NCBI RefSeq assembly: GCF_019633745.1 | Contig: NZ_CP037968.1 | Location: 1,742,789-1,806,788 of the forward strand | Length of the DNA: 64,000 bases | Reading direction: 5' to 3' | DNA from: Methanofollis formosanus | Lineage (GTDB): Archaea; Halobacteriota; Methanomicrobia; Methanomicrobiales; Methanofollaceae | Part shown: piece by piece, positions 30,751-34,800 of the stretch | Layout: each line of letters begins with the position of its first letter | Position numbering within the stretch: the stretch's first letter is position 1 | The notes under the pieces: generated by a model | What the model saw: only the letters and a program-made list of their open reading frames with translations | Database searches by the model: none | What the model was told of the DNA's origin: nothing | Position numbers and translations under genes: made by a program

Positions 30751-32034
30751 TCACCGAAACGATGCCTTCAGGCGGTTGAGGTCTACCTGGGCGAGACGTT
30801 CCTCAGAAAGCCTCGGGTCTTTCGCGAGGACTTCCTGTATTTTCTTCGTGTTGCTGTCAAACCACATCTCTTTTGTCCTTCCATATCGTCCTTTCGAGAC
30901 GACGCGGGTGTTGATCACCCCGAGCATGTTCAATTCGGAGATGAGGTCGGTGATCCGCCGGTGGGTGAGCGGGTCGATGTTGACGATGCGCGAGACCTCA
31001 CGGTAGACCCTGGTCACCTCGCCGGAGGTGAAGATCTTCTTGTCCATCTCCTCCAGGAGCAGCATCGAGTACAGGACGACTTTGCTCTGGGTAGGCAGGG
31101 TCGAGATGCACTCGATCATCGAGTCGGTCTCGATCTTCTCGAGGGCCATACGGACGTGCTTCTCTTTCACCTGTTCGGCGTTCTCCCGATCCGCAAGTTC
31201 GCCGGAGACCCGGAGGAGGTCGAGGGCGCGGCGGGCGTCGCCGTGTTCCTGCGCGGCGAAGGCGGCGCAGAGCGGGATGACCCCTTCTTCGAGGCTTCCT
31301 TCGACGAAGGCCATCTCAGCGCGCTGGGCGAGGATGTCGCAGAGTTGCGGGGCGTTGTAAGGGGGGAAGACGATCTCCTCTTCGGAGAGGGAGGAGAGGA
31401 CGCGGGGGTCGAGGAAGTCGGTGAACCTGAGGTCATTGGAGATCCCGATCATCGAGACCTTGGCGCCCTGCAGGTCGGCGTTGATCCTGGTGAGGTTGTA
31501 CAGGGTCTCGTCCCCGCTTTTTTTGACGAGTTTGTCGATCTCGTCCAGGACGATGACGAGCACCCCGCCGGTTGCCTCAAGCTGGTTCTTGAGTTCGGTG
31601 TACACCTGGTCGGTCGGCCACCCGGTCATCGGGATGTGAGCGCGGGCGCGGTCACTCGCGCTGGCGTCGAGGTCCTCAAGGCTCTTGGCGATCTGCGCGA
31701 GTACGCGGTACTGGGTGTCGATCACCTCGCAGTTGAGGTGGACCACCCGGCACCCGGTCCCCACACCGGCGCCGACCTTCTCGAGTTCGCTCCCCACGTA
31801 CCGGACACACGCCGTCTTGCCGGTCCCGGTCTTCCCATAGATGAGAATGTTCGAGGGGGTCTCGTCCTTGATAGCAGGTGCGAGGATGGAAGCGATGGCA
31901 TCGATCTGGGGGCGCCTATGAGGGAGGATCTGCGGTCGGTACGAGTGCCTGAGCACCTCCCGATTCTTAAAGATCCGGTTGTTGCTGAGGAATTTTTGAA
32001 AAAGACCAAGGGGTTGATCATCGTTTTCGGCCAT
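30751..32034 (-). CDS. cdc6: ORC1-type DNA replication initiator Orc1/Cdc6
   Basis: 427-residue AAA+ initiator with Walker A IYGKTGTGKTA (about 60-70), Walker B VLVIVLDEIDKL, sensor 1 region SMIGISNDLRF, sensor 2 arginine in HGDARRALDLLR, and a C-terminal winged-helix DNA-binding domain (about 330-415). It binds origin recognition boxes and loads MCM. It is transcribed away from the origin region that starts just upstream of its ATG, the usual archaeal arrangement. The downstream lrp and aminotransferase genes may be co-transcribed. Confidence 0.96.
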   Translation of the reverse strand: MAENDDQPLGLFQKFLSNNRIFKNREVLRHSYRPQILPHRRPQIDAIASILAPAIKDETPSNILIYGKTGTGKTACVRYVGSELEKVGAGVGTGCRVVHLNCEVIDTQYRVLAQIAKSLEDLDASASDRARAHIPMTGWPTDQVYTELKNQLEATGGVLVIVLDEIDKLVKKSGDETLYNLTRINADLQGAKVSMIGISNDLRFTDFLDPRVLSSLSEEEIVFPPYNAPQLCDILAQRAEMAFVEGSLEEGVIPLCAAFAAQEHGDARRALDLLRVSGELADRENAEQVKEKHVRMALEKIETDSMIECISTLPTQSKVVLYSMLLLEEMDKKIFTSGEVTRVYREVSRIVNIDPLTHRRITDLISELNMLGVINTRVVSKGRYGRTKEMWFDSNTKKIQEVLAKDPRLSEERLAQVDLNRLKASFR

Positions 32035-32090
32035 GGTATCAACTGCAGAAGTAAGGGGTGAACACTGATCTCATGGGGGTGAGGGGATAT

Positions 32091-32114
32091 AACCCCTTTG
32101 TTTCCATTGGAGAT
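32091..32114 (-). promoter_or_regulatory. Origin recognition box (left 1)
   Basis: Minus-strand text reads CTCCAATGGAAACAAAGGGG, an ORB with one change in the dyad. It lies 57 bases upstream of the orc1/cdc6 ATG, so it may also autoregulate that gene. Confidence 0.8.
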
Positions 32115-32177
32115 ACTATATAAATATGATCTCCGGTTTCTGAGAAAGGTTCAGAAACGCCGAGATCGCGAACGATC

Positions 32178-32203
32178 ACCCCCACCCCTTTGTTTCGAGT
32201 GGA
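32178..32203 (-). promoter_or_regulatory. Origin recognition box (left 2)
   Basis: Minus-strand text TTCCACTCGAAACAAAGGGG, followed by a G-rich TGGGGGTG tail, the long-ORB form. It has the same tail as the right-hand box at 32912. Confidence 0.8.
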
Positions 32204-32211
32204 ATCAAAAG

Positions 32212-32231
32212 GAAAACAGGATCCTGTTTTC
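32212..32231. repeat. Perfect 20-bp palindrome in the origin
   Basis: A perfect inverted repeat centred on GGATCC with arms GAAAACAG / CTGTTTTC, followed by a T-run. It starts the A+T-rich stretch; it could be a protein site or a cruciform, or act as a terminator. Confidence 0.7.
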
Positions 32232-32410
32232 TTTTTTAATTGTGAAAAACAGCTTGTTGTATGGTTCGCGACTTGTACTATATATCCGATCTGATCAGAG
32301 ATCAGCGATCACGCCGATCTGACTAGATCGTGATCAGGGATCAGGGATCGGCGCGAGATATGATCGCGGATCCCACATTGGTGATGATGATGATCTGAGA
32401 TCCCGGATCC

Positions 32411-32640
32411 GGTAGAATCGGGATCAGTCGATCTCGGATCCCGGATCGGTGATCACAGATCCTCGATCAGGCAGAATCGGGATCAGTCGATCTCGGATTT
32501 CGGATCGGTGATCTCAGATCCTGGATCCGGTAGAATCAGGATCACCCGATCTTGGATCTTGAATTGGTGATCACAGATCCTCGATCAGGCAGAATCAGGA
32601 TCAGTCGATCTCGGATCGGTGATCACAGATCCCCTCGATC
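32411..32640. repeat. Four 59-bp GATC-rich tandem iterons
   Basis: Units start at 32411, 32470, 32529 and 32588, each opening with GGTAGAATC or GGCAGAATC and containing the succession GGGATCAGTCGATCTCGGAT; the last is shortened. The surrounding 32288-32880 has about 54 GATC sites by hand count against about two expected by chance. Confidence 0.8.
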
Positions 32641-32717
32641 TTCTCTGATCGTTCTTGATCCTCACCTGATCTCTTCATGATCCTCACTGGATCGGAGTTG
32701 ATCACGCTGATCGTAAA

Positions 32718-32731
32718 GGGAAACAATGGGG
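32718..32731 (+). promoter_or_regulatory. Degenerate mini-ORB
   Basis: GGGAAACAATGGGG differs from the mini-ORB core TGGAAACAAAGGGG at two positions. Confidence 0.4.
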
Positions 32732-32911
32732 AGTACAGGGGAGATCAGGGTGTGATCTCAGGGGATCCGGATCTTGGATTCGGGTTCAAATATCTTGTTT
32801 CATCTGATTATCTCCCAGGATCTTCGATAAAATGATCGGGGAGTGCCGGAGGAGATCCGGTGGCAGAAGAGCGTGATCCCTCCTCGTTTTACTCAGGTCT
32901 TCTCCGCCTTC

Positions 32912-32940
32912 GTTCCACTGGAAATAAAGGGGTGGGGGTT
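32912..32940 (+). promoter_or_regulatory. Origin recognition box (right)
   Basis: GTTCCACTGGAAATAAAGGG followed by GTGGGGGTT; opposite in orientation to the two left boxes, so the central region is bracketed by inverted ORBs. Confidence 0.8.
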
Positions 32941-33000
32941 CTTCCCTCTCCCACAAGAAGTATCTGGGGGAAAGGATCAATCTCTCACTGAGGATTCTCA

Positions 33001-33489
33001 ATGAAACCAGAACATATCAAAGAGATCGAGGTGACCGTCGCGGTGGTGACCGTCTCCTCGACGCGGACCGAGGAGACCGATACGAGCGGGAAAGCGATCC
33101 GCGATCTCCTTGAGGCCGCGGGGTATCATGTCGTCCACCGGGCGATCGTCAAGGACGACACCGCGGCGATCCGGGCCTCCCTCTTCGAGTCGCTCTCGCT
33201 GGCGGATGCCGTCATCTTCAACGGAGGGACAGGGCTGACCCCAGACGACTGCACCATCGAGGCGGTGGAACCATTCTTTGAGAAGAAGATGGAGGGGTTC
33301 GGAGAACTCTTCAGGATGCTCTCCTATGACGATATCGGGACCTCGGCCCTCCTCTCGCGCGCCGCTGCCGGTGTCGCGGGCGGAAAGGCGATCTTCTGCG
33401 TCCCGGGATCGACCGGTGCGGTCACCCTCGCCACCGAGCAGATCATCATCCCCGAACTGCTCCATATCATCTCGCACGCCCGTGGGTAG
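33001..33489 (+). CDS. moaB: Molybdenum cofactor biosynthesis protein MoaB/MogA family
   Basis: 162-residue molybdopterin-binding fold protein. It adenylylates molybdopterin before metal insertion (tungstopterin is likely in a methanogen with formylmethanofuran and formate dehydrogenases). Motifs are AVVTVSSTRTEETDTSG, the loop FNGGTGLTPDDCTIEAVEP, and FCVPGSTGAVTLATEQII. The gene reads away from the origin. Confidence 0.92.
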   Translation: MKPEHIKEIEVTVAVVTVSSTRTEETDTSGKAIRDLLEAAGYHVVHRAIVKDDTAAIRASLFESLSLADAVIFNGGTGLTPDDCTIEAVEPFFEKKMEGFGELFRMLSYDDIGTSALLSRAAAGVAGGKAIFCVPGSTGAVTLATEQIIIPELLHIISHARG

Positions 33490-33547: not shown

Positions 33548-34800
33548 AAAGCCGATGGCTCGTGATCAGATCGTGCCGTCTCCGATTACTGAATTTGTTC
33601 TGGTATTTCGCGAGAAGATAGGACGGGAGACGGCGACAGAGATCAACCTCCTCCCGTCCGGTTCTATCTTCGGGGTCATGAGACCGGAACGGCGTTGTGA
33701 TCGGATGTGCCGTCCTCCCCCACTGAATTTGTTCTGGTATTTCGCGAGAAGATAGGTGAGGGACGGCATGGGGTGGTGTGCTCCTCGGGGTAATGATCGC
33801 CCTCTTCCCGTCCGGGTTCTATCTTCGGGGTCATGAAACCGGGACAGCGTGATGATCCAAATATGCCGTCCCTCATCACTGAATTTTGTCTGATATTTCG
33901 CGAGAAGATAGGTGAGGGACGGCATGGGTGGTGTGCTCTTCCTCGTCCTGCTCCAATCTTCGGGGTTATGAAAATAGAACAGCGTCGTGATCAAAATGTA
34001 CCCTCCCTCATCACTGAATCTGTTCTGCCGTCTCGCGAGAAGATGGGACGGAGGATGGCACGGGGTGGAGTGCTCCTCGGAGTAATAATCGCTCCTCTCC
34101 CTTCCCGCTCCAATCTTCGGGGTCATGAGAACAGGACGGCATCGTGATCAAAATGTGCTGTCCCTCATCACTGAATATTTTCTGGTATTTCGCGAGAAGA
34201 TAGTGCGGGGGACGGCGACGGAGATCAACCTTCTCCCGTCCGGTTCTATCTTCGGGGTCATGAGAACAGGACGGCATCGTGATCAAAATGTGCCGTCCCC
34301 TCATCACTGAATCTGTTCTGCTCTCTCGTGAGAAGATAGGACGGGGGACGGCACGGGGTGGTGTGCTCCTCGGGGTAATAATCGCCCTCTTCCCATCCGG
34401 TTTCTATCTTCGGGGTCATGAGACCGGAACGGCGTTGTGATCGGATGTGCCGTCCTCCCCCACTGAATTTGTTCTGGTATTTCACGAGAAGATAGGTGAG
34501 GGACGGCATGGGGTGGTGTGCTCTTCCCCGTCCCGCTCCAATCTTCGGGGTCATGAGAACAGGACAGCGTCGTGATCAAAAAATGTGCCGTCCCTCATCA
34601 CTGAATCTGTTCTGATATTTCGCGAGAAGATGGGACGGGGGACGGCACGAATTGGTGTGCTCCTCGGGGTAATGATCGCCACTCTTCCGTCCCGCTCCAA
34701 TCTTCGGGGTCATGAGAACAGGACGGCATCGTGATCAAAATGTGCCGTCCCTCATCACCGAATTTATTCTCCCATCCCATCTTGTGAGAAGATAGCCGGT
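33548..34800. repeat. Satellite-like tandem array with two alternating unit lengths
   Basis: Nine units are marked by GAGAAGATA/G at 33612, 33746, 33902, 34037, 34194, 34330, 34486, 34624 and 34786. The spacings are 134, 156, 135, 157, 136, 156, 138 and 162, so short and long units alternate and the higher-order repeat is about 291 bp. Each unit carries two inverted repeats: GGACGGCA / TGCCGTCC, and GAAGATAGGACGGG pairing with CCCGTCC...CTATCTTC. Short ORFs inside are frame artefacts of the repeat. The array fills the gap between moaB and cgi121. Confidence 0.85.

Follow-up and report, generated by a model that had tools for sequence, protein, structure and literature searches.

A dense GATC array at the predicted Orc1/Cdc6 replication origin of Methanofollis and its possible link to orphan DNA methylases

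Introduction

Upstream of an orc1/cdc6 initiator gene of the methanogen Methanofollis formosanus lies a non-coding cluster of GATC words, at what is predicted to be a replication origin; why is this word so crowded there, and might DNA methylation give the cluster a role? How archaea keep each origin from firing more than once in a cell cycle is little understood, and control of such an origin by methylation has so far, as far as could be found, only been proposed, from the CTAG clusters of haloarchaea. In Escherichia coli, oriC carries 11 GATC sites in 245 bp, which are used by the Dam/SeqA system. No account of Methanofollis origins, or of GATC in them, was found in open-licence papers. The analysis described here concerns a stretch of 64,000 nucleotides (the window; positions 1,742,789-1,806,788) of the M. 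formosanus genome (2,965,921 bp, one contig), together with the corresponding loci of related archaea. Genomes are designated by G numbers (M. formosanus is G000), with C and L numbers for contigs and loci.

Layout of the predicted origin

The region is a predicted replication origin of the Orc1/Cdc6 kind in Methanofollis, with the features listed in Table 1. The array faces the start, and thus occupies the upstream side, of the leftward orc1/cdc6 gene, which is 91-99% identical to the orc1 genes of same-genus genomes and has matches in 119 of the 120 Methanomicrobiales genomes searched. The inverted ORB sites that the initial annotation had placed on either side of the array are borne out as a pair of 27-nt arms, with an extra ORB-like site further to the left that also occurs in Methanofollis and Methanoculleus loci. 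ORB-like sites surround the region in the Methanofollis loci and in most of those of Methanoculleus. Between left ORB-like site 2 and the array is an AT-rich module, a candidate unwinding element, which the Methanofollis origins compared share with slight variation. The GC skew around the locus is weak and noisy, too weak to confirm the origin. M. formosanus carries five Orc1/Cdc6 genes, and the GATC array was not found at the loci of the other four paralogues. Just past moaB (33560-34770) lies an origin-proximal family of about four imperfect 292-bp tandem repeats, in which the blocks ATCTTCGGGGTCATGAG and TTTCGCGAGAAGATAG recur.

Table 1. Features of the predicted origin and its flanks, in window coordinates.
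Feature	Coordinates	Strand	Evidence
orc1/cdc6 initiator gene	30751..32034	-	Pfam Cdc6_C, Cdc6_lid, AAA
Left ORB-like site 1, ACCCCTTTGTTTCCATTGGA	32092..32111	+	repeat family D4
Left ORB-like site 2	32178..32204	+	inverted-repeat arm I1, 93% complementary to right ORB
Conserved module: AAAACAG..CTGTTTT inverted repeat, then AAAACAGCTTGTTGTA...ACTTGTACTATATAT	32207..32287	.	inverted repeat I6
GATC array, 54 sites	32288..32880	.	count; equivalent in 11 readable Methanofollis origins
59-bp tandem repeat within array, 3.8 copies, lineage-specific	32391..32617	.	83% match
Right ORB-like site, inverted	32903..32939	-	I1 (arm 32913-32939) and D4
MoaB/MogA-like molybdopterin-binding protein gene, flanks origin	33001..33489	+	PF00994

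Excess of GATC in the array

The initial annotation had counted about 54 GATC sites by hand and set them against an expectation of about two. The count is exactly right (54 in 593 bp), while the expectation is reproduced by mononucleotide composition (2.3) and is too low by the fairer measure of genome background (10.0 GATC/kb over 400 kb of sampled M. formosanus sequence), which gives about 6 sites and an excess of about 9-fold. The four tandem 59-bp units described in the same annotation exist as a repeat; as an iteron, however, the unit is specific to this lineage rather than general. No other stretch of 593 bp comes close to the array, the maximum being 16 GATC in the 400 kb sampled and 15 in the rest of the window. 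When the array is shuffled with its dinucleotides preserved, so that its biased composition is retained, the yield is 24.7 +/- 3.2 GATC (maximum 35, n=2000). A pattern of four GATC in close succession is found in the array and just once elsewhere in the genome; these genome-wide figures rest on the pattern search and on the 400 kb of sampled stretches. The excess also has an edge, as GATC density is 75/kb inside the ORBs and drops to near background, 17/kb, in the next kilobase beyond the right ORB.

Since GATC is self-complementary, many copies of it could endow the single strands with structure, and a structured element was among the readings first offered. The fold of the array does stand apart from dinucleotide shuffles (z = -2.8), but shuffles in which the GATC words are held fixed fold as well (z = +0.8), and an RNA element was rejected as Rfam gave no match at E values up to 0.1. 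Such secondary structure as there is follows from the density of GATC, and as an explanation of the array it is extremely unlikely.

Conservation within Methanofollis

The array is present in all 11 readable origins among the 12 Methanofollis genomes, the origin of the twelfth (G062) being cut off. The arrays comprise 11-86 sites over 220 to 1038 bp, at densities of 47-106 GATC/kb or one site per 9-21 bp, with figures that are partial for G015 (right end not located, cut at 700 bp), G045 (contig ends) and G051 (a 100-bp run of N). They start at the same left module and end at the right ORB wherever that ORB was located, and outside the ORBs the density is 8-22 GATC/kb.

What is conserved is the word and not the repeat that carries it. 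The repeat units are 59 bp in G000, 82 bp in G015, 67-74 bp in G051, 72 bp in G009 and 15 bp in G003 and G045, and some arrays have little regular tandem structure. The bases that flank GATC and the preferred spacing vary by lineage (best periods range from about 5 to 8 bp, and some lineages have none); GATC alone is common to all. A common helical phasing was considered and set aside: nothing stands out at 10.5 bp, and a pooled signal at 6.7 bp came from one clade.

Close pairs, which can be aligned reliably, suggest that GATC outlasts its surroundings. Between G033 and G039, 52 of 55 GATC in the array are kept compared to 156 of 234 other 4-mers (p = 8e-6), and between G033 and G051 the figures are 59 of 60 and 186 of 224 (p = 0.001). 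The more distant pair G000/G015 keeps 41 of 50 GATC and 44 of 199 other 4-mers, in an alignment that may itself anchor on GATC. In the orc1 coding sequences of these close pairs the contrast is smaller, and sites are few (for G033/G039, 14/15 GATC vs 972/1174 other 4-mers). As GATC is retained above other 4-mers in the close pairs, we read this as selection acting on the word GATC itself.

Distribution outside the genus

The GATC array is nearly confined to Methanofollis. The origins of other Methanomicrobiales usually have an inter-ORB density of 0-20 GATC/kb, mostly near background. Mild enrichment is noted in (i) Methanoculleus FWC-SCC1 (L084) and G119 (L238), which seem to be the same sequence (36.5/kb over 219 bp), (ii) G008 (29.4/kb) and (iii) G046 (L240, 25.9/kb). 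Weaker versions of the array may thus exist outside Methanofollis, and the enriched inter-ORB regions of G046, FWC-SCC1 and G119 are possibly incipient or decayed arrays. The prospect raised by the initial annotation, that a high GATC density would be conserved in the origins of relatives, holds within the genus and fails for most of the order beyond it.

The base composition of these loci bears on one alternative, in which dense m6A on both strands lowers duplex stability between the ORBs, such that full methylation licenses melting without any reader. It is known that m6A destabilises duplexes, and the array lies between inverted ORBs, the place of helicase loading. Some relatives are AT-rich in this interval (GC 0.24-0.35 in L101, L115 and L118) and Methanofollis is mostly about 50% GC, which speaks for this reading. 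Yet an AT-rich module already exists next to the array, and the inter-ORB regions of Methanoculleus are similarly GC-rich (0.45-0.55) and mostly lack an array, which makes a melting role rather improbable.

A pattern search of 393 genomes of the phylum identified a comparable cluster outside Methanofollis in G254 only. This cluster (L197, G254:C11:72797-72957) belongs to a genome of another order and is a 15-bp minisatellite with two GATC per unit, positioned next to a gyrA-like gene, away from orc1.

That a comparable minisatellite has arisen elsewhere, and that tandem duplications in Methanofollis are clearly active and lineage-specific, would agree with a neutral origin of the array, in which a GATC-bearing unit was spread by replication slippage through tolerant non-coding DNA and has no function. 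Slippage of this kind does not readily explain why the differing units of each lineage are all dense in GATC, why GATC outlasts other 4-mers in the close pairs tested or why the array is bounded by the ORBs and occurs in every readable member of the genus. A functionless minisatellite is, thus, very unlikely.

GATC methylases of Methanofollis and their relatives

M. formosanus encodes a DpnA-type methylase (G000:C1:332059-332934), a predicted example of the GATC methylase gene that the initial annotation had recommended seeking; a Dam/DpnM gene was not found in this genome. The DpnA shares 49% identity with the second methylase of the Lactococcus plasmid pSRQ700, whose gene there forms a run of three with those for a Dam methylase and a type II nuclease, a set that we take to be LlaDCHI. 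LlaDCHI is listed as specifying a GATC system (PMC4190342). Based on the identity to the pSRQ700 enzyme and on its mutual exclusion with Dam, the DpnA of M. formosanus is predicted to target GATC.

The exclusion is apparent across the order. In 120 Methanomicrobiales genomes, DpnA occurs in 29 and Dam/DpnM in 76, with both in 2 (18 expected) and neither in 17 (Fisher p = 3.6e-13, a value that ignores shared ancestry and overstates independence). Such a distribution is expected of enzymes that do the same job and fits the possibility that DpnA and Dam/DpnM share one; across the order it looks like non-orthologous replacement. The Dam form is described as a persistent orphan GATC methylase (HG3) in 15 of 19 Methanomicrobiales (PMC10609329), and substitution by DpnA would account for at least some Methanomicrobiales genomes without Dam. 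Most Methanomicrobiales with Dam or DpnA have no such array, and the presence of a methylase does not predict one.

Each of the 12 Methanofollis genomes has one methylase type by homology: nine have DpnA (one of them broken) and three have Dam (G003, G009 and G027), the Dam of G003 being 38% identical to the first methylase of pSRQ700. The DpnII-family nuclease (PF04556) is absent from all 12, and thus the Methanofollis GATC methylases look like orphans from their gene content; no nuclease families were detected among the scanned neighbour genes of the methylase.

The broken gene is that of G057. Of its dpnA (L207, G057:C13, 3239-3684, minus strand), the first half remains together with a short C-terminal piece that is out of frame, an internal deletion having removed the catalytic part. 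G057 also has the sparsest of the Methanofollis arrays (11 sites in 233 bp, 47/kb), and the coincidence of a broken DpnA with the weakest array is suggestive only. Dam was not found in G057, an 88% complete metagenome-assembled genome from whose assembly a methylase may be missing. As the orc1 tree places G057 among the three Dam carriers, it may also own a Dam gene that was not assembled. The broken dpnA is a possible relic of a DpnA-to-Dam swap.

The methylases also bear on a further alternative, that the origin is coated by a GATC-binding protein which acts independently of methylation, whether centromere-like, nucleoid-organising or an Orc1/Cdc6 paralogue. In its favour, conservation rests with GATC, which a protein could recognise in unmethylated form; five Orc1/Cdc6 genes are present in the genome; and the variable spacing is as for short independent sites. 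However, this explanation turns two matches into coincidences: that the word bound is one predicted to be methylated by an orphan enzyme, which is either of two unrelated kinds, and that the weakest array accompanies the broken DpnA. A methylation-independent binding protein is, thus, unlikely, though it deserves more weight than the melting role.

Proposed mechanism

The explanation preferred here, with slightly better than even confidence, is that the GATC cluster is a methylation-target array that couples the methylation state of the origin to initiation. A methylation-controlled switch and a GATC-binding array were both among the initial readings, and one or the other is still the best, given an array that is bounded by ORBs and upstream of orc1, a word that appears to be selected and a predicted methylase gene in the same genome. 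The sequence-based part of the case comprises the array, the ORBs, orc1, the genus-wide conservation, the selective retention of GATC, the single methylase type per genome and the lack of a DpnII nuclease; from these we infer the GATC specificity and activity of the methylase, methylation of the array, sensing of hemimethylation and an effect on initiation.

According to this methylation-target model, selection would have packed the stretch between the ORBs with sites for a stand-alone GATC adenine methylase, and the sites of the array would be fully methylated prior to initiation. Firing of the origin would render all of the approximately 50 sites hemimethylated together, a strong and transient mark. 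A reader protein, or the loading of Orc1/MCM itself, would tell hemimethylated from fully methylated DNA, and re-initiation would be blocked or permitted until the orphan methylase restores the array. The large number of sites may serve in two ways: dozens of them would make remethylation a multi-step timer and would also provide a binding platform that is independent of fixed spacing.

Known readers of GATC methylation were sought. SeqA (PF03925) has no match in the 12 Methanofollis genomes at E 0.1, with E. coli positive as a control; the search for MutH was empty; and that for DpnI_C returned sub-cut-off matches only, none credible. Any reader would, thus, differ in kind from SeqA, MutH and DpnI_C. 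A more specific proposal is that the array is part of an independently evolved archaeal sequestration timer, similar to Dam/SeqA, in which some protein with no relation to SeqA would recognise dozens of hemimethylated GATC sites at an Orc1/ORB origin, and either of two unrelated methylases could serve the array. This fuller version is plausible, though held with somewhat less than even confidence.

Relation to known systems

The Methanofollis origin shares with the E. coli oriC/Dam/SeqA system a GATC-rich sequence and a predicted GATC adenine methylase with no partner nuclease found. By contrast to E. coli, the initiator is Orc1/Cdc6 with ORBs rather than DnaA, SeqA and MutH are missing, the methylase of M. 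formosanus is of the DpnA type and not Dam, and the sites number 54 versus 11. As in plasmid iteron origins, tandem repeats lie within the origin; the difference is that the unit changes from species to species, with GATC alone kept. The methylases resemble those of DpnII/LlaDCHI, with the DpnA matching the second and the G003 Dam the first methylase of pSRQ700 at the identities given above, and differ in that no nuclease gene was found and each Methanofollis genome has one methylase. The description of HG3 suits the Dam/DpnM of G003, G009, G027 and most of the order; GATC origin arrays and replacement by DpnA are not mentioned in the passages of that account that were consulted (PMC10609329).

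Clusters of orphan-methylase motifs at origins were reported in four groups by Blow et al. in 2016: GATC in Gammaproteobacteria, TTAA in Arthrobacter, CTCGAG in Nocardia and CTAG at haloarchaeal orc1/cdc6 (PMC4752239). The Methanofollis arrays are similarly non-coding, composed of a predicted orphan-methylase motif and positioned at an origin, and the haloarchaeal clusters, too, lie upstream of orc1/cdc6. The initial remark that no comparable archaeal system is known must therefore be withdrawn in view of these CTAG clusters and their orphan CTAG methylase (PMC4752239). Methanofollis differs from the haloarchaea in its motif, and from the reported clusters overall in that (i) GATC is clustered in a methanogen, (ii) the arrays are nearly confined to one genus though the methylase is order-wide, (iii) the same array is found with two unrelated methylases, DpnA or Dam, and (iv) a site occurs every 9-21 bp.

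The functional case for the CTAG clusters is weak in Haloferax volcanii, as CTAG density is high at one origin only (oriC2) and removal of the methylases causes no growth defect (PMC5867850). H. volcanii does not need its origins, and the GATC enrichment noted around oriC2 as well is of uncertain meaning (PMC5867850).

Significance

That motif clusters of orphan methylases are found at origins is already known, with archaeal precedent. What is new is the lineage, a dense ORB-bounded GATC motif for archaea, the extreme density and the occurrence of the array with either of two unrelated methylases. Methanofollis is a much clearer case than those available before, with an ORB origin and the strongest motif saturation found; two unrelated methylases swap while the array stays, and one species combines a broken methylase gene with a weak array. 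The findings suggest that DNA methylation helps to control the timing of chromosome copying in Methanofollis, as it does in E. coli, and they make hemimethylation timing of archaeal replication directly testable in this genus.
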